Part shown: positions 20,895 to 29,455 of the stretch, one piece after another
How the letters are laid out: every line of letters begins with the position of its first letter
Numbering within the stretch: position 1 is the first letter of the stretch
NCBI GenBank assembly: GCA_028714615.1
Contig: JAQTMA010000001.1
Location: 20,132-84,131, forward strand
Reading direction: 5' to 3'
DNA from: Anaerolineaceae bacterium
Lineage (GTDB): Bacteria > Chloroflexota > Anaerolineae > Anaerolineales > Anaerolineaceae
DNA length: 64,000 nt
Notes under the pieces: model-generated
What the model saw: only the letters and a program-made list of their open reading frames with translations
Told to the model about the DNA's origin: nothing
Databases searched by the model: none
Program-made: the position numbers and the translations under genes

Positions 20895-21803
20895 ATGGAT
20901 TTACGAAATCAATACCTTCACTACCAATGGTGCCAAATGGACGACGTTGAAAAATTTCTTAGCCAATCGGGTTTTCTTCCTACCACAATCGAGGGATACC
21001 GGCGCCTGTTGCAGTATTTCGACGGGTTCTTGCAGTCGTATGGGATTGGCATTGAAAGGGCCGGACCGGAAGTGCTGCTGAATTTCATGGAGCGGCGCCA
21101 GTGGGGCGAAGCTGCTCGTCATAAGTGTTCTGCAGCGATTCGCTCTTACGTGCGTTGGAAGTACGGGGAGGCCCACCCGATCCTATCGCTCAAGCTGCGC
21201 CGGCCGCCCATCAAGCCGCACCGCACGTTGACCGCGGCACAGGTAAGGCTGCTGCTGGATTCCTTTGACCTGGAACGGCCGGCCGGGCTGCGCGATTATG
21301 CGATTGTGATGCTGATGGTGGAAACGGGCTTGCGCAAGGCGGAAGTAGCGCGCCTGGAGCTGGCTTACGTTAACCTGGAAGCGCGCAAGTTGGACGTGCT
21401 GGTCAAAGGCGGCCACTGGGGCAGCGGTTATTTTTCAGAGGAAACCGCAAGCTCGCTTGACGATTGGTTATCGATTCGGGGGATCTACGCGAAGCCGGAA
21501 ACGAAAGGTTTCTTCTGCGCGGTGGGCGGCCACCACGCCGGTCAGAGCCTGACTACCAACGGGGTCGGGATGATCTTCAAAACGATGAGCCGCCGGGTGG
21601 GCTTCCCGGTCTCAGCGCACGATTTGCGCCGCACCATGGCCACGCTCTTGACCCTCTCCGGCGCGCCAACCGAGGTGGTCTGCAAGGCCGGTCGCTGGCA
21701 TAATCTCGAGCAGGTGCGCACCTACACCCAGGCGGTGCAGGCCAGCGCCGTGATGAAATATCTGCCGATGCCCAATTTGAACCGCTTAGTGCATGGGGAT
21801 TGA
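20895..21803 (+). CDS. Tyrosine integrase
   Basis: 302 aa. Core-binding domain ~20-95, catalytic domain ~108-290. Catalytic residues visible: R147 (TGLRKAEVA), K171 (VKGGHW), H242/R245 (AHDLRRT), W268-H269 (GRWHN), Y277 (RTYTQ). It catalyses integration and excision at the tRNA attachment site, which begins ~37 bases after its stop. The start is uncertain: ATG 20895 or the internal ATG 20937 (MDDVEKFL). It is on the opposite strand to all neighbours. Confidence 0.92.
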   Translation: MDLRNQYLHYQWCQMDDVEKFLSQSGFLPTTIEGYRRLLQYFDGFLQSYGIGIERAGPEVLLNFMERRQWGEAARHKCSAAIRSYVRWKYGEAHPILSLKLRRPPIKPHRTLTAAQVRLLLDSFDLERPAGLRDYAIVMLMVETGLRKAEVARLELAYVNLEARKLDVLVKGGHWGSGYFSEETASSLDDWLSIRGIYAKPETKGFFCAVGGHHAGQSLTTNGVGMIFKTMSRRVGFPVSAHDLRRTMATLLTLSGAPTEVVCKAGRWHNLEQVRTYTQAVQASAVMKYLPMPNLNRLVHGD

Positions 21804-21871: not shown

Positions 21872-22339
21872 AAAGGAAACCAAATAATACCGGTTGTAGG
21901 TTTGTTGGATATGTATGCCGATTAGCAATTGTTAATGTACAGACGCGCGGAGTACCAGCCGATCTCGGGCAAAGTGATCGAAGGTACCGATAACCAGATG
22001 TAGGCGTTGCAGCAATAAAGACTTACTTATCGCGTAAAGAAGACCCCGGGTTGGAACCGGGGAAATTCAACTAGAAAATTTTTGCAATTCGTGGAGAGAA
22101 GTTTTTCTCCTGCAACAGAAATCTTGGCGGGTCGTGACACCAATAGTATAGAACGTATGTTCTGTAAATGCAAGTGAGAAAAGGGTGATTTCGGGGGGCA
22201 ATTCATTAACTTAGTCATTCCTACCTACCATGGGTGTGGGATGAATTTCCTGGATGTCAGTAGTCTTGGCGGGCTGGTGGCAAACAGGAAGTAATGGGAA
22301 AATCTCTATTGCGAAAGCGGTAGGGATTTTTCTTTTTCC
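21872..22339. other. Non-coding attachment-site flank (468 bp)
   Basis: No convincing gene. It holds a GC hairpin (CCCCGG/CCGGGG, 22044-22062), a LexA-type box (22149-22164), a small GGAGA...TCTCC hairpin near 22092 and a GTAGGG/CCCTAC inverted repeat at the end of the repressor gene. The first ~150 bp probably include integrase arm sites, though I could not define repeats. Confidence 0.6.
22149..22164. promoter_or_regulatory. LexA-type box
   Basis: TAGAAC-GTAT-GTTCTG: perfect GAACnnnnGTTC core. Shares arms with the box at 20313-20328, suggesting the same regulator. No clear promoter elements around it. Confidence 0.6.
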
Positions 22340-24695: not shown

Positions 24696-25625
24696 ATGGA
24701 CATCCACGACAGCATCAATGCACTGGTTTCCGAGCTTTCGAGCAGCCGCTCAGCCAACACCGCCCGCACCTACCGCAACGCCTATTCCACCTGGCTGCGC
24801 TACCTCGCAGAGTCGGGTATTCCGGAGACGGCCCCGGTCGAAGGCCTCACCATTGATCACTTCATCCATTTTCCCAGCTGGTTCCTGGGCCAAAAACTCT
24901 CCAAGGCCACCCAGCTGTGCTACCTGGCCGGGATCCGCGCCCTGATCAACTGGCTGGTGATCAACGGCTACCTCAACCCCTCCTACCTCGATACCATCCG
25001 CCTGGAGAAGGCGCTCAGCCAGGTCAGCCGCAAGAAAGAGCACAAACTGCCGCGCATCCCCAAGCCCGGGCAGGTGGAGGGCATCCTCTCTGCCGCCGGC
25101 CGGGCTACCTCCGCCTCTCCCATCCTGGAGCGCGATATCGCGATTGTGGAGCTCTTGGCTTCCTCCGGCTGCCGCAACGCCGAGATCGCCCAGCTCTGCG
25201 TGGGACAGATCGACCTGGTGGAGCGCCGCGCCCGGGTCTTGGGGAAAGGCAGCAAAGAGGCTTTCGCCTACTTCTCCACCCAGGCTGCGGACGCGCTCCG
25301 AGCCTACTGGGCTGCGCGCGGGTCCGCCGCTCCCGAGGAGCCCGCTTTCTGCCGGCACGATCGGGGCGCCGGGGGGCGGGCGCTGCCCCTGTCGACTAAC
25401 TCCATCCGCGAAATCGTCCTCGCCTTGCGCCAGGCGGCCGGGATCGAGAGCCAGTTTTCCCCGCACTATTTCCGGCACGCCTTCGGCATGAAGGTCCTGC
25501 ACGATACCGGGAATCTCGCCCTGACCCAGGATCTCATGCGGCATGAGAACCCGGCCTCCACCCGCGTCTACGCCACCATCGACCCCGATGATCTGCGCGA
25601 GGCGCATCGCAAGATCTACCAGTAG
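24696..25625 (+). CDS. Second tyrosine recombinase (XerC/D-like)
   Basis: 309 aa, unrelated in detail to the integrase. SAM-like N-terminal domain ~5-105; catalytic residues R160 (SSGCRNAEIAQL), K184 or K187 (GKGSKEAF), H257/R260 (SPHYFRHAFG), H283 (LMRHENPAS), Y292 (TRVYATID). No attachment-like repeat next to it. It may resolve multimers, help excision, or be a passenger. Weak ribosome site. Confidence 0.85.
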   Translation: MDIHDSINALVSELSSSRSANTARTYRNAYSTWLRYLAESGIPETAPVEGLTIDHFIHFPSWFLGQKLSKATQLCYLAGIRALINWLVINGYLNPSYLDTIRLEKALSQVSRKKEHKLPRIPKPGQVEGILSAAGRATSASPILERDIAIVELLASSGCRNAEIAQLCVGQIDLVERRARVLGKGSKEAFAYFSTQAADALRAYWAARGSAAPEEPAFCRHDRGAGGRALPLSTNSIREIVLALRQAAGIESQFSPHYFRHAFGMKVLHDTGNLALTQDLMRHENPASTRVYATIDPDDLREAHRKIYQ

Positions 25626-25835
25626 CATGGATATTCCTCTGCATCACCGAATGCCACAAATCTGCTGACGATGTTGGGGACCATTTGGGCAGCTGTAAAC
25701 TGAAATGTTATTCCTGGATTGAAATCACGACAAAAGTTATGCGATTCCTATGCCTTTTGTACAATTGAACCGAGGTATACTAGAACAGAAGTTGCACCCT
25801 ATCAGAGTGGCGTCCAACCTAACGGAGGTTTCATA

Positions 25836-27125
25836 ATGACGGCAGAAATTGCTGTTATGAATAAATGCGCGGTCGCGATTGCCGCAGATAGCGCTGCAAC
25901 TGTTTATTATCCGGGCGGCAGAAAAATATTCAATTCGGCATGCAAGTTATACATGCTTTCAAAGTACAATCCCGTGGGGGGCTTGATCTATCAGAACTTA
26001 GAAATTATGGGTGTGCCATGGGAAACACTCATTAAGATCTTCCGGAAGCAATTAAAGAAAGATAAATGCGATCATATCAAGGGATATGCCGAAAAACTCA
26101 TCTTATTCGTCAGTCGGTTTTTCTCTGAAAAGGATCAAGAGGCCCATTTCACATCCACAATAACCGATTACTTTACCCTCATGGCTAAGGAAATCGACAC
26201 CAAGGTCACCCAAATTATTGAAAAAAACGGGGCGATCGATCAGGACAACACAGCAGAGATTGTACAATCGGCGATTTACGAGTATTACGATCGCTGGGAC
26301 CATTTGGAATCGCTGCCCTATGCCACGGATGAATACTGCCAGGAATTATTAGAAAAATATGGTGGGGCGATTGAATTGGCTCGCTGCAAAATTTTCAAGG
26401 AGCTTCCATTCACCGATGATGCTACTGATTATTTGAATAAATTTTGCGCCCACATATTTTCAAAGAATAATTTCCAGGACTACTCGGGTGTCGTAATTAC
26501 TGGCTTCGGGGAAGCGGAAATTTACCCGAATATCGTGACCATGCGAGTGGAAGGAGTTGTAAACAACCATCTCAAATTCGTCGTTGATGAGGACTGCGGG
26601 ATATCAAGCGATTTTCCCGCCCGGGTGTTTCCGTTAGCGCAAAAGGACGTTACCCTATCTTTCTTTCAAGGAATCGACCCACAGCTTAAAAGCATTATCC
26701 TTGATTCTATATCCAAGACTTTCACCGCATTATCTCCCGCATTAATTCAAGCGATGGAGAATCAGATTCCCGACCTCGATCAAACTGTAAGGACGAATTT
26801 ATCCGAAAAACTAAGCAGATTTGGCGAAAGTACATATAATATACTTGAACAGTTGATCAATGGGTATTCAAAGAAGGTCCATGTCGATCCCATTTTGACA
26901 GCAATTCAATTCCTTTCAAAGGGAGAATTGGCTGCCATGGCTGAAACTCTGGTAAACTTGACATCCTTTCGGCGGAAGATGTCTATGGGTGATGAGACGG
27001 TTGGTGGCCCCATAGACGTAGCAGTAATCTCCAAGGCTGATGGTTTTGTCTGGATAGATCGCAAGCATTACTTCGATCCAAAAATCAATCATCAATTTTT
27101 TGATAATTATTATCATATAGACTAA
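25836..27125 (+). CDS. Proteasome/HslV-like Ntn-hydrolase with long C-terminal extension
   Basis: 429 aa from ATG 25836, which has GGAGG eight bases upstream; an upstream in-frame ATG at 25719 lacks this. After Met removal the chain starts Thr1: TAEIAVMNKCAVAIAADSAA. This aligns with proteasome beta subunits and HslV: catalytic Thr1, Asp17 in AIAAD, T21, a conserved Lys after a 3-residue shift (NSACKLYMLS), and a glycine-rich turn (VGGLIYQN). The remaining ~350 aa (VPWETLIKIFRKQL onward) are mixed and unrecognised. Predicted cytoplasmic peptidase. AT-rich versus the phage core, suggesting recent acquisition. Not Anbu or HslV by length. Confidence 0.7.
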   Translation: MTAEIAVMNKCAVAIAADSAATVYYPGGRKIFNSACKLYMLSKYNPVGGLIYQNLEIMGVPWETLIKIFRKQLKKDKCDHIKGYAEKLILFVSRFFSEKDQEAHFTSTITDYFTLMAKEIDTKVTQIIEKNGAIDQDNTAEIVQSAIYEYYDRWDHLESLPYATDEYCQELLEKYGGAIELARCKIFKELPFTDDATDYLNKFCAHIFSKNNFQDYSGVVITGFGEAEIYPNIVTMRVEGVVNNHLKFVVDEDCGISSDFPARVFPLAQKDVTLSFFQGIDPQLKSIILDSISKTFTALSPALIQAMENQIPDLDQTVRTNLSEKLSRFGESTYNILEQLINGYSKKVHVDPILTAIQFLSKGELAAMAETLVNLTSFRRKMSMGDETVGGPIDVAVISKADGFVWIDRKHYFDPKINHQFFDNYYHID

Positions 27126-27139
27126 GAAGGAGGAACCAA

Positions 27140-27364
27140 ATGATGGAACCTAAGAATTCACCGAAGGTTTTCCGCTCCATGGAAGAGTTCAGGGATACAT
27201 TCTTACCTGAAACCCCGAGTGAGAAATTTGCCAGAAAAATCAGCGATACCCGAGATCCCGGGGTGATTGGAGATCTGTTTTCTAGAATCGCGCTGGATGG
27301 TTTCAATAAAACCATTTCGAGCGATGATGCCACACAACGCTGCAAACCAGGAAATAAAGATTGA
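27140..27364 (+). CDS. Small partner of the Ntn-hydrolase (74 aa)
   Basis: Starts 14 bases after the hydrolase with a strong GGAGG. Begins MMEPKNSPKVFRSMEEFRDT, contains SEKFARKISDTRDPGVIGDL, no membrane segment. It is the last gene before the terminator at 27379-27410, so both form one unit. Possible inhibitor, substrate or adaptor; no homology seen. Confidence 0.7.
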   Translation: MMEPKNSPKVFRSMEEFRDTFLPETPSEKFARKISDTRDPGVIGDLFSRIALDGFNKTISSDDATQRCKPGNKD

Positions 27365-27378
27365 TAATTTCAAACCAA

Positions 27379-27410
27379 AACACCCCGCTAGATGGCGGGG
27401 TGTTTTTTTA
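27379..27410 (+). terminator. Intrinsic terminator after the Ntn-hydrolase pair
   Basis: AACACCCCGC / GCGGGGTGTT stem with a 6-base loop followed by TTTTTT. Ends the rightward unit. Confidence 0.9.
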
Positions 27411-27643
27411 TTCCCACTCGAAATCCCAAAGTCTAGGGGTTTCCATCAAAAATGATGTTTCCTTCATTTTCCAGTTGCATGTCGCTCTGGTCATTGCCAT
27501 CGAACACCTGAAGCTGGTGGTACCGACAGAATGACCGTTTCCGAAGATACGGTTTGACAAATTTCCTCTATAATAAAACCAGCCCGCCAAAAACAATTGA
27601 ATAGAGTTGATCCTAGCCACGGTCCTATGGAGGGGATATTGCC

Positions 27644-28540
27644 ATGCTTATCACGCGTGAGTATGAGCTTGTCGGGGGCGCCGAATTCCAGCAGATGGGA
27701 GCAGATTTCATCGCACTGGACGTGGAAACGGCCAACCCGAACTTCGCTAGTATCTGTCAGATCGGGATTGCGTTTTTCAAAGACGGGGCGATTTGTGCCA
27801 CTAGCAAAACTTTCATCGATCCGCAAGATTATTTCGATGATATGAACGTTTTCATTCACGGCATCACCGAGGAGAGGGTCGCCGGTGCGCCGACCTTTCC
27901 AGACTTTCTGAAGCTCCTCCGGCCGATCCTGGAAAACCAAATCGTAGTTCACCACACCGCATTTGATAAGGCCTCCTTCCGCCAGGCCGCCCAAAAATAC
28001 AACCTGCCCGAGCTGGATTGTCGCTGGCTGGACACGGCCCGCGTTGCCCGCCGCACCTGGGAAACCTACCGCTATTCCGGCTATGGGTTAGGCCCTTTGG
28101 CCGAGAGGCTATCGATCCAATTTCAGGCGCACGACGCACTGGAGGATGCTCGCGCCTGTGGCGAGATCTTACTCCGCGCCATTCAGACATCTGGGATTTC
28201 CTTGGCGGACTGGCTGGAATTGGCACCCAAAAGTTTTGGCGGCAATATTTCCCAATCCGGTAACCCTGACGGACCCCTCGCTGGGGAAGTGATCGTCTTC
28301 ACTGGTGAGCTCTCCCTCAAGCGTGCAGAAGCAGCCAAGATCGCCGCGAAGACTGGCTGCGACGTCGCTGATGGCGTGAACAAAGCCACGACAATCCTAG
28401 TAGTCGGCGATCAGGATATCAAGAAGTTAGCCGGTCAGCTGAAGAGTTCGAAGCATCGAAAAGCAGAATCATTAATCGGGGCTGGCCAGGCAATTCGGAT
28501 CATCGCCGAAAAAGACTTTCTCGAATTAGTGAAAATCTAA
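27644..28540 (+). CDS. DnaQ-like 3'-5' exonuclease fused to BRCT domain
   Basis: 298 aa. ATG preceded by GGAGGGG. DEDDh exonuclease at ~20-180: ALDVET (D26, E28), HHTAFDKASF and HDALEDARACG. BRCT at ~210-298: LAGEVIVFTGELSLKR, GVNKATTILVVGD, ISKADFLELV-like end (AEKDFLELVKI). This architecture resembles DNA polymerase III epsilon-type/repair exonucleases in Gram-positives. A cargo gene next to a DUF2806-like gene; it may serve phage DNA repair or defence. Confidence 0.85.
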   Translation: MLITREYELVGGAEFQQMGADFIALDVETANPNFASICQIGIAFFKDGAICATSKTFIDPQDYFDDMNVFIHGITEERVAGAPTFPDFLKLLRPILENQIVVHHTAFDKASFRQAAQKYNLPELDCRWLDTARVARRTWETYRYSGYGLGPLAERLSIQFQAHDALEDARACGEILLRAIQTSGISLADWLELAPKSFGGNISQSGNPDGPLAGEVIVFTGELSLKRAEAAKIAAKTGCDVADGVNKATTILVVGDQDIKKLAGQLKSSKHRKAESLIGAGQAIRIIAEKDFLELVKI

Positions 28541-28588
28541 TCAGAAATTACTAAATTAATTTTGTGGACAACCAGTAAACGAGGCAGC

Positions 28589-29455
28589 ATGGATCCCTCA
28601 ATAATTCCCGCTCTTGCAGGTGTAATTGGTGCAACAACTCCATTCGCTATTAAATTGACCGACACACTGAAATTCATTTATGCCCAAGAATCAGAACCCC
28701 GATTGATAAAATCACGGGGCTTGGCAGAAGTAGAGGTAAATAAAGCACAACATGATGAGGATTTACGATACAGAAGAGCCGAGTTAAGAGTAGCTAGGCT
28801 CGAAGACCGAAGACAAAGAAATATTGAATCGATTATCGATAAGACTTTACCATATGCACCAGAGAAGATCAGTCCAGAAAAAGTTGATGAAGATTGGACT
28901 GTGAATTTTCTTAATCATTGCCAGGATGTTTGCAATGAAGAAATGCAACATTTGTGGGCGAAGATACTAGCAGGTGAAGTTGCTAAGCCTGGCTCGTTTT
29001 CGAAACAAACAGTACAGATTGTGCAGCTGCTTAGCAATTGGGACGCACGTCTATTTCAAATGGTGAGTTTGGTCTCGATCAGAATGGGGCGCCGATTTAT
29101 CATCCAAGATAAGATCTTGGATGATTACTTCAATGAGGCATCAATAAGTTTTGTAAATTTGTTATCCCTCCACGATCTTGGGCTTCTCTGCGATGTGTCC
29201 AGTCAATCAACAGGACTACCAGAAGGGAGCTCGGGGCTCATGGTTCACTATTGCGGTGGGCAGTTCCCAATATTTAACCATTCCGAGAAGACCTTATTTG
29301 TTACGGGCACATTTTTCACAAAGGCTGGAGTTGAACTTTTCCCGCTTTGTGAAGGTTCTGCTGACCCCGAGTTTGTTAAACTACTTAAACAATCTTTTGT
29401 CCGATATGGTTACGATCTCGTCACGAATGGGAAAGACGGATGCATCACCGGGTGA
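28589..29455 (+). CDS. DUF2806-like protein
   Basis: About 288 aa from ATG 28589 (GAGG upstream; TTG 28562 also possible). Short N-terminal hydrophobic segment (IIPALAGVIGATTPFAIKL), an Arg/Glu-rich coiled coil, then the diagnostic DWTVNFLNHCQDVCNEEMQ, HLWAKILAGEVAKPGSFSK block. Function of DUF2806 unknown; members are often in accessory regions. AT-rich. Convergent with the wall hydrolase gene. Confidence 0.7.
   Translation: MDPSIIPALAGVIGATTPFAIKLTDTLKFIYAQESEPRLIKSRGLAEVEVNKAQHDEDLRYRRAELRVARLEDRRQRNIESIIDKTLPYAPEKISPEKVDEDWTVNFLNHCQDVCNEEMQHLWAKILAGEVAKPGSFSKQTVQIVQLLSNWDARLFQMVSLVSIRMGRRFIIQDKILDDYFNEASISFVNLLSLHDLGLLCDVSSQSTGLPEGSSGLMVHYCGGQFPIFNHSEKTLFVTGTFFTKAGVELFPLCEGSADPEFVKLLKQSFVRYGYDLVTNGKDGCITG

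Follow-up and report, generated by a model that had tools for sequence, protein, structure and literature searches.

What is the role of a two-gene unit that sits within a phage in the genome of an Anaerolineaceae bacterium and whose larger gene encodes a relative of the proteasome? The unit lies in a window of 64,000 nucleotides (assembly GCA_028714615.1, contig JAQTMA010000001.1, positions 20,132 to 84,131 of the forward strand; all coordinates below are those of the window) and consists of an open reading frame (ORF) for a 429-aa protein at 25836-27125 and a gene for a 74-aa protein at 27140-27364, here called the partner, both on the plus strand. The larger protein is almost certainly a proteasome-like threonine hydrolase with predicted catalytic activity, and the two genes very probably constitute a conserved module. 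The best explanation we can offer, to which we give an even chance, is a compact cargo module of temperate phages, satellites, plasmids and chromosomes in which the partner would regulate the hydrolase and which is most likely directed against incoming phages.

The hydrolase gene is preceded by a GGAGG ribosome-binding site (25824-25828) and its product starts with MTAEIAVMNKCAVAIAADS. Once the initiator methionine is removed, threonine becomes residue 1, aspartate residue 17 and a further threonine residue 21, just as the initial annotation of the locus had read from the sequence. The lysine it placed near residues 33-36 has two candidates, mature residues 29 (Lys30, codon 25923-25925) and 36 (Lys37); a profile alignment pairs Lys30 with Lys33 of the proteasome beta subunit across a turn that is four residues shorter, yet this pairing is statistically weak. 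Conservation was assessed in 210 distinct aligned relatives, i.e., the fetched loci with a match from residue 1 plus the rows of the homologue alignment. Thr2 (codon 25839-25841), the nucleophile-to-be, is present in 210 of them, Asp18 (codon 25887-25889), the Asp17 equivalent, in 209, Thr22 in 204 (serine in the other six), Lys30 in 209 and Lys37 in 210. The fetched loci number 160 and represent 80 of 141 matches on viral contigs, many of which are near-duplicates, and 80 of 365 on genome contigs (viral and genome loci in the following). They were retrieved by the C-terminal patterns KGDGF[IV] and ETVGGPID, so that conservation at these patterns is biased; Thr2, Asp18 and Lys30 lie outside both. 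The match extends from residue 1 in 159 of 161 sequences (exceptions L084 and L143), all 159 with threonine directly after the start codon, which is ATG in 139, TTG in 11 and GTG in 9 cases. A Shine-Dalgarno 4-mer precedes this Met-Thr start in 79 of the 159 sequences as compared to 195 of 1428 internal in-frame ATG codons. For one Escherichia coli hydrolase (L183:8834-8932), the RefSeq start precedes the conserved Met-Thr start (8933) by 33 codons, and the nucleophile would therefore be hidden; a clear ribosome site is visible at neither position.

The hydrolase matches phrog_5990, a PHROG family of unknown function, over its full length (E 1.5e-101), and 5465 proteins among the 7997 scored are related at E ≤ 0.001, the best relative sharing 45% identity. 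A single-sequence scan of viral sequences returned no relative, and a sequence search of the PDB gave only a chance ribosomal match. With the alignment profile, a short stretch of proteasome beta was found in the PDB (E 0.19); a match to helices of cullin-3 (E 0.0034, residues 84-162) was set aside as reflecting helix composition within an insertion. In structure comparison, the AlphaFold2 (AF2) model of the hydrolase matches proteasome beta and Anbu, with which it shares fold and nucleophile arrangement; the best alignment sets in with residue 2 of the model and residue 1 of beta. The same proteasome-type fold and nucleophile arrangement are found in HslV. The protein is thus predicted to have the N-terminal nucleophile (Ntn) hydrolase fold originally proposed. 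The accompanying claim that the later 350 or so residues resemble neither HslV nor the proteasome nor Anbu does not hold, since the model places the remaining proteasome core there (strands 217-268 and 393-408, helix 362-384) along with two helical insertions of approximate boundaries. The first (about residues 98-210, 26127-26465) follows the first helices, H1/H2, with helices at about 98-207 before the strand starting at 217, and the second (about residues 316-358, 26781-26909) lies between the H3-like and H4-like helices, with helices 282-310 and 316-358 preceding helix 362-384. The protein differs from 20S proteasome beta, Anbu and HslV in that 245 of its 429 residues fall outside the best structural alignment, that no ATPase gene was seen to recur beside its gene and that it gave no PF00227 match.

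Fuchs, Alva and Lupas introduced 22 new families of proteasome-like proteins to which no function is assigned (Fuchs et al., 2021; PMC8665760). Among these, proteasome homolog with multiple insertions 3 and 4 (PMI-3 and PMI-4) are described as carrying two insertions, one after H1/H2 and another between H3/H4. With 501 sequences at 90% identity, PMI-4 is the large family of this pair, and only PMI-4 is marked for phages. The window enzyme resembles the published PMI-4 in its proteasome-like core, Thr1/Asp17/Lys33 (the lysine pairing being weak in the window), the lack of a propeptide and both insertions, and the spread over bacteria, Euryarchaeota and phages, the trait separating PMI-4 from PMI-3, is also what we found. 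In our model, strands 28-33 and 37-42 are adjacent and the two-helix S3/S4 insertion of connectase is absent. Because of the same two insertions, the missing S3/S4 insertion and the matching distribution, we file the enzyme as PMI-4-like, by agreement with the published description; as an enzyme family it is not new. The passages of Fuchs et al. on these families state that no genomic context or co-occurrence hinting at function was found, and their description of PMI-4 contains no partner gene. Neither a linked partner nor a shared defense slot was found among the papers that searches of open-licence PMC listed (preprints not included). What is new is the partner linked to the hydrolase, fold and family having been published already.

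Under a strict definition (ORF of 35-90 aa that begins with ATG or GTG no more than 60 nt from the enzyme stop and has a ribosome site of 4 nt or more), a small ORF follows the hydrolase in 110 of 158 family loci, the window included, versus 55 of 816 other large ORFs; for genome loci only, the counts are 59/80 and 25/507. A profile was built from 42 genome-locus partners picked by motif, with the window excluded, and searched against 20,610 ORFs of at least 30 aa in the 160 loci plus the window. At E ≤ 1, all 70 matches lie directly downstream of a hydrolase gene, 28 of them outside the training set, and at E ≤ 10 this applies to 79 of 97 matches. The 74-aa gene of the window is recognized with E 1e-8 (9.7e-9 after iteration). 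The iterated profile (E ≤ 0.01) identifies the partner in 60/80 genome and 4/80 viral loci and nowhere else, and three sub-profiles seeded with viral sequences recover 10, 20 and 7 adjacent ORFs, again none elsewhere, the total for viral loci being 40/80. Most loci without a recognizable partner still hold a small ORF in its place, the kinship of which is unproved. Co-occurrence of the two genes, as expected by the initial annotation, was thus found. A search of the protein library with the partner profile gave seven rows, the window's own included, a number too small to tell whether the partner also exists on its own. With partner sequences, Pfam, NCBIfam and PHROGs yielded single weak matches only. 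Fusion of enzyme and partner was considered for a longer Mesorhizobium protein (478 aa) and rejected, as the extension is a basic tail without partner motif; among the fetched members, none exceeds 465 aa.

The partner looks like a real protein under coding selection, because the ratio of nonsynonymous to synonymous substitution rates (dN/dS) is 0.06-0.40 in 20 of the 21 pairs for which it could be computed (0.67 in the remaining pair, L039/L044); 34 pairs were tried, of which 13 are saturated or without ratio, and several ratios rest on dS > 1. The enzyme comparisons L124/L128 and L095/L097 are distorted, with dropped stops or a frame error as the probable cause, and were set aside. Under a permissive call, the partner start precedes the end of the enzyme stop codon in 55 of 80 genome loci. 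One proline, preceded by aromatic residues, is nearly invariant, and a C-terminal helix with an LG..LA..SL pattern comes after it; the aromatic-Pro motif occurs in 57/80 genome-locus partners. The AF2 model of the window partner is all-helical (predicted local distance difference test 79.1; predicted template modelling score 0.39, which is low). In genome loci, the partner has a mean net charge of +4 and the enzyme one of -6; the window pair has 0 and -14, respectively. It is somewhat more probable that the partner, which would bind the enzyme, is a regulator than that it is a substrate.

In the window, the partner has its own strong ribosome site (AGGAGG, 27128-27133) and is followed by an intrinsic terminator on the plus strand (27377-27406; 13-bp stem, 4-nt loop, T tract) that ends the unit, both as first noted. 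The terminator scan taken alone is not significant, because one terminator was found versus a shuffle mean of 2.3, and no promoter-like site was detected on the plus strand of 25500-27700. The hydrolase and partner genes have GC contents of 42.3% and 44.9%, respectively, versus 56.1% for the surrounding 41.8-kb unit, which confirms that they are AT-richer. That unit is clearly a phage, with minus-strand matches to major head, protease, portal, terminase, tape measure and tail fibre proteins. Bases 1-21871 are an exact copy of 41792-63662, suggestive of a tandem or doubly assembled prophage with attachment junction. The copies part at 21872/63663, just past the integrase gene (20895-21803) and behind a tRNA-like 3' end (judged from the sequence; ARAGORN called no tRNA), and the phage unit therefore begins at an attachment junction around 21872. 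Measured from there, the two-gene unit is about 4 kb into the phage and runs antiparallel to the head and tail genes. Phage matches and junction thus confirm it as phage-borne cargo, and terminator and strand orientation support the view of a self-contained unit. Just upstream, at 24696-25625, a second, Xer-like tyrosine recombinase is encoded (Pfam Phage_integrase, 8.8e-25), separate from the phage integrase, that may mark an insertion inside the cargo zone. The next cargo genes encode a DEDDh exonuclease with BRCT domain (27644-28540; PADLOC candidate PDC-S48, 6.1e-27, probably a generic exonuclease match) and a DUF2806/TIGR03899 protein (28562-29455).

In E. coli, such pairs occupy two cargo slots of prophages. 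Two subtypes are present in 9 and 13 of 5426 complete genomes. Subtype A is located between the Q antiterminator gene and a methyltransferase/tRNA/holin block, on the opposite strand and with a 49-aa partner downstream. In other prophages this slot is either empty or filled by a plus-strand gene with NA37 domain and a second gene (one case each viewed). In the filled case (L193:4459-6830), an NA37 nucleoid-associated protein and a 408-aa protein that matches nothing in Pfam or PADLOC replace the hydrolase pair and make up a candidate cargo system. Subtype B follows directly behind a repressor-like helix-turn-helix gene of a Rac-type prophage, before YdaE and RecE/RecT, with a 34-aa ORF downstream. 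From 108 matching E. coli records we viewed five prophages that have the same right flank and lack the pair. Small unknown genes fill the repressor slot in four of them, two sharing the same genes, and there are four distinct fillings in all. In strain H6 the slot holds a KilA-N gene and then a gene matching BstA (2.1e-15), while the replication genes and those on the YdaE side share their protein accessions with the subtype B locus and the repressor differs; the KilA-N and BstA C-terminal parts reside on two neighboring ORFs (L190:3801-4562). The cargo slot of the hydrolase pair thus also holds a known defense gene, in one case among the five prophages viewed. According to the BstA paper, the lysogen expresses bstA at a high level from a position downstream of the prophage repressor, the site that lambda uses for rexAB (PMC8585504). 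The proteins are unrelated to the hydrolase pair, and the likeness is one of position alone, behind the repressor of Rac-type E. coli prophages. This shared slot is our best evidence for a possible anti-phage role expressed in lysogens, although it amounts to guilt by position, with one defense gene among four fillings. Whether the pair serves in defense is, on this footing, an evenly balanced question; the defense or superinfection exclusion module suggested by the initial annotation has gained positional support, and its action may be of this kind.

Among mobile elements, the enzyme is found in 13 of 50,697 phage records (phages and satellites of Streptococcus as well as Providencia, Porphyromonas and Stenotrophomonas) and in 10 of 72,556 plasmids, and it is also found on contigs of many bacteria and archaea. 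Its distribution is patchy: it is present in 2/151 genomes in the family of a Psychrobacillus, in 16/149 in an archaeal order and in 1/195 in the order of a Nostoc, each sample counting its own center and the archaeal one also a second genome already known to carry the enzyme. Nine of the 16 archaeal matches are partial or split (G191, G194, G206, G209, G227, G233, G259, G289, G298), which suggests frequent loss or, for some, assembly ends. Neighboring genes seldom recur. Just six of 263 neighbor clusters are shared by three or four of the 80 genome loci, and one of these six is an antisense ORF over the unit itself. The widest covers four loci in related archaea (L084, L086, L087, L113) that share upstream genes, apparently a fixed chromosomal site in that lineage. 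On rhizobial plasmids (L166, L168, L169; three of six plasmids viewed, two of them with the same kind of Rhizobium island), multiubiquitin and ThiF genes are found near the hydrolase. A ubiquitin-linked function was considered and rejected, ThiF being outside the 25 commonest of 208 Pfam families among 139 chromosomal neighbors.

The module probably works as follows. Methionine aminopeptidase would expose Thr1, and the equivalents of Asp17 and Lys33 would complete the active center. The insertions after H1/H2 and between H3/H4 probably block a closed double ring; following the argument of Fuchs et al. that such insertions clash with it, the enzyme likely has few substrates and would be a specific peptidase (or transpeptidase) rather than a bulk degrader. 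The partner, a helical protein of 35-80 aa whose gene often overlaps that of the enzyme, is probably translated from the same message and co-expressed. It would bind the enzyme and set its activity, either as an inhibitor released on infection or as an adaptor or substrate. In prophages the module would be made during lysogeny; an infecting phage would then change the partner's hold or targeting, upon which the enzyme would cleave a phage or host protein and infection would stop.

A number of results speak against this interpretation. For the enzyme, Foldseek gave no match of the model in the PDB at E 0.001, PF00227 gave no row at E ≤ 1, a profile-profile comparison with four archaeal beta subunits was not significant (E 0.11), and the position we assign to the oxyanion glycine is glycine in 178/210 relatives and glutamine in the window. 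For the module, the small ORF is not recognized as kin by any profile in 20/80 genome and 40/80 viral loci. For defense, PADLOC gave no convincing match for hydrolase or partner, and the alternative cargo of both E. coli slots is mostly unknown; the 10 proteins scanned yielded one good match, to BstA, besides a weak one of the KilA-N protein to PDC-S22 and another weak one, probably due to coiled coil. The upstream genes of the archaeal site probably belong to a CO dehydrogenase operon, judging by the Pfam tally, a non-defense context. Neighbors of 48 chromosomal loci, for which 139 of 246 listed proteins were scanned and the first 25 families of each scan considered, are mixed and without baseline: few restriction-modification genes (certain methyltransferases and restriction enzymes, amid many genes of unrelated kinds), PADLOC mad2 in 5/139, and many housekeeping genes. 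Enrichment near provirus contig ends was tried and rejected (13/52 within 4 kb on contigs of at least 20 kb versus 11.9 expected). Finally, in Providencia, Streptococcus Javan85 and Porphyromonas phages the hydrolase is on the strand of the lytic genes. The initial interpretation is nevertheless partly supported: fold, module and cargo nature stand, dissimilarity beyond the N-terminus does not, and neither a fold other than Ntn, nor homologues lacking Thr1/Asp17, nor a lack of co-occurrence was encountered.

Among other explanations, a toxin-antitoxin or addiction cassette would have the hydrolase harm its host and the small protein neutralize it, so that the element is retained and defense is a side effect. 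The unit resides on plasmids and satellites, more than half of the archaeal matches are partial or split, and in one group the small second gene evolves fast (ten pairs from five viral loci, identity of 43-60% for the partner versus 72-82% for the enzyme). In six other pairs, however, the partner is at least as similar as the enzyme, the pair is rare in E. coli, where it occupies exchangeable cargo slots and not sites next to replication or partition genes, and the mean charges of a basic partner and an acidic enzyme fit binding without pointing at an antitoxin specifically. We consider a cassette of this type unlikely. Even less is to be expected of a specific peptidase or ligase resembling connectase, a proteasome-like protein ligase that works outside a barrel (PMC8665760), with the partner as substrate and the cleaved or joined product as active agent. 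A D-P-x-x-[LIVY]-G-like motif in 38/80 genome-locus partners, a loose pattern for which a chance level was not computed, and the aromatic-Pro motif would agree with such a reaction, whereas the signature S3/S4 insertion is absent, only the aromatic-Pro proline is nearly invariant, and the hydrolase gene differs from that of connectase in its co-encoded small protein. It is very unlikely that the pair serves protein turnover unrelated to phages, either ATP-independent or chaperone-assisted, in which the small protein would be a factor for assembly or specificity. Such roles were suggested for proteasome homologues generally in the text of Fuchs et al. (PMC8665760), and the enzyme occurs on contigs of many bacteria and archaea (some of these loci may be prophages), but its distribution within families and orders is very patchy and its contexts include mobile elements. 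No AAA+ gene was seen to recur beside the hydrolase, the widest neighbor cluster spanning 4/80 genome loci; AAA families match 3/139 neighbors, and an unfoldase may be encoded elsewhere in the genome. Processing of virion or host-takeover proteins in the lytic cycle is highly improbable, for although phages carry the pair, one Porphyromonas phage with the hydrolase co-oriented with the head and tail genes that surround it and the Providencia and Javan85 phages with it on the lysis-gene strand, the hydrolase faces the lytic genes in the window, in the E. coli Q slot and in a Stenotrophomonas phage (there the lysis genes), both flanking ORFs face the opposite way in 22/71 viral loci (9/62 genome loci) versus 54/582 control ORFs, and relatives reside on plasmids and cellular contigs as well.

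The small gene linked to the hydrolase provides a direct handle on one of the largest function-less proteasome-like families. If the cargo module indeed acts in defense, a proteasome relative would take part in prokaryotic immunity with no ubiquitin system and no ATPase gene regularly beside it. Tentatively, the pair may represent a new class of immune modules in bacteria, archaea, prophages, satellites and plasmids, with a stand-alone proteasome-like threonine hydrolase as effector that is checked or directed by a helical micro-protein; in a bolder version, the response would be armed by a specific, connectase-like reaction in which the partner, as cognate substrate, is cleaved or ligated. 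Should such a class exist, the PMI branch of the proteasome superfamily, most of which is unexplained, would be an immunity branch.
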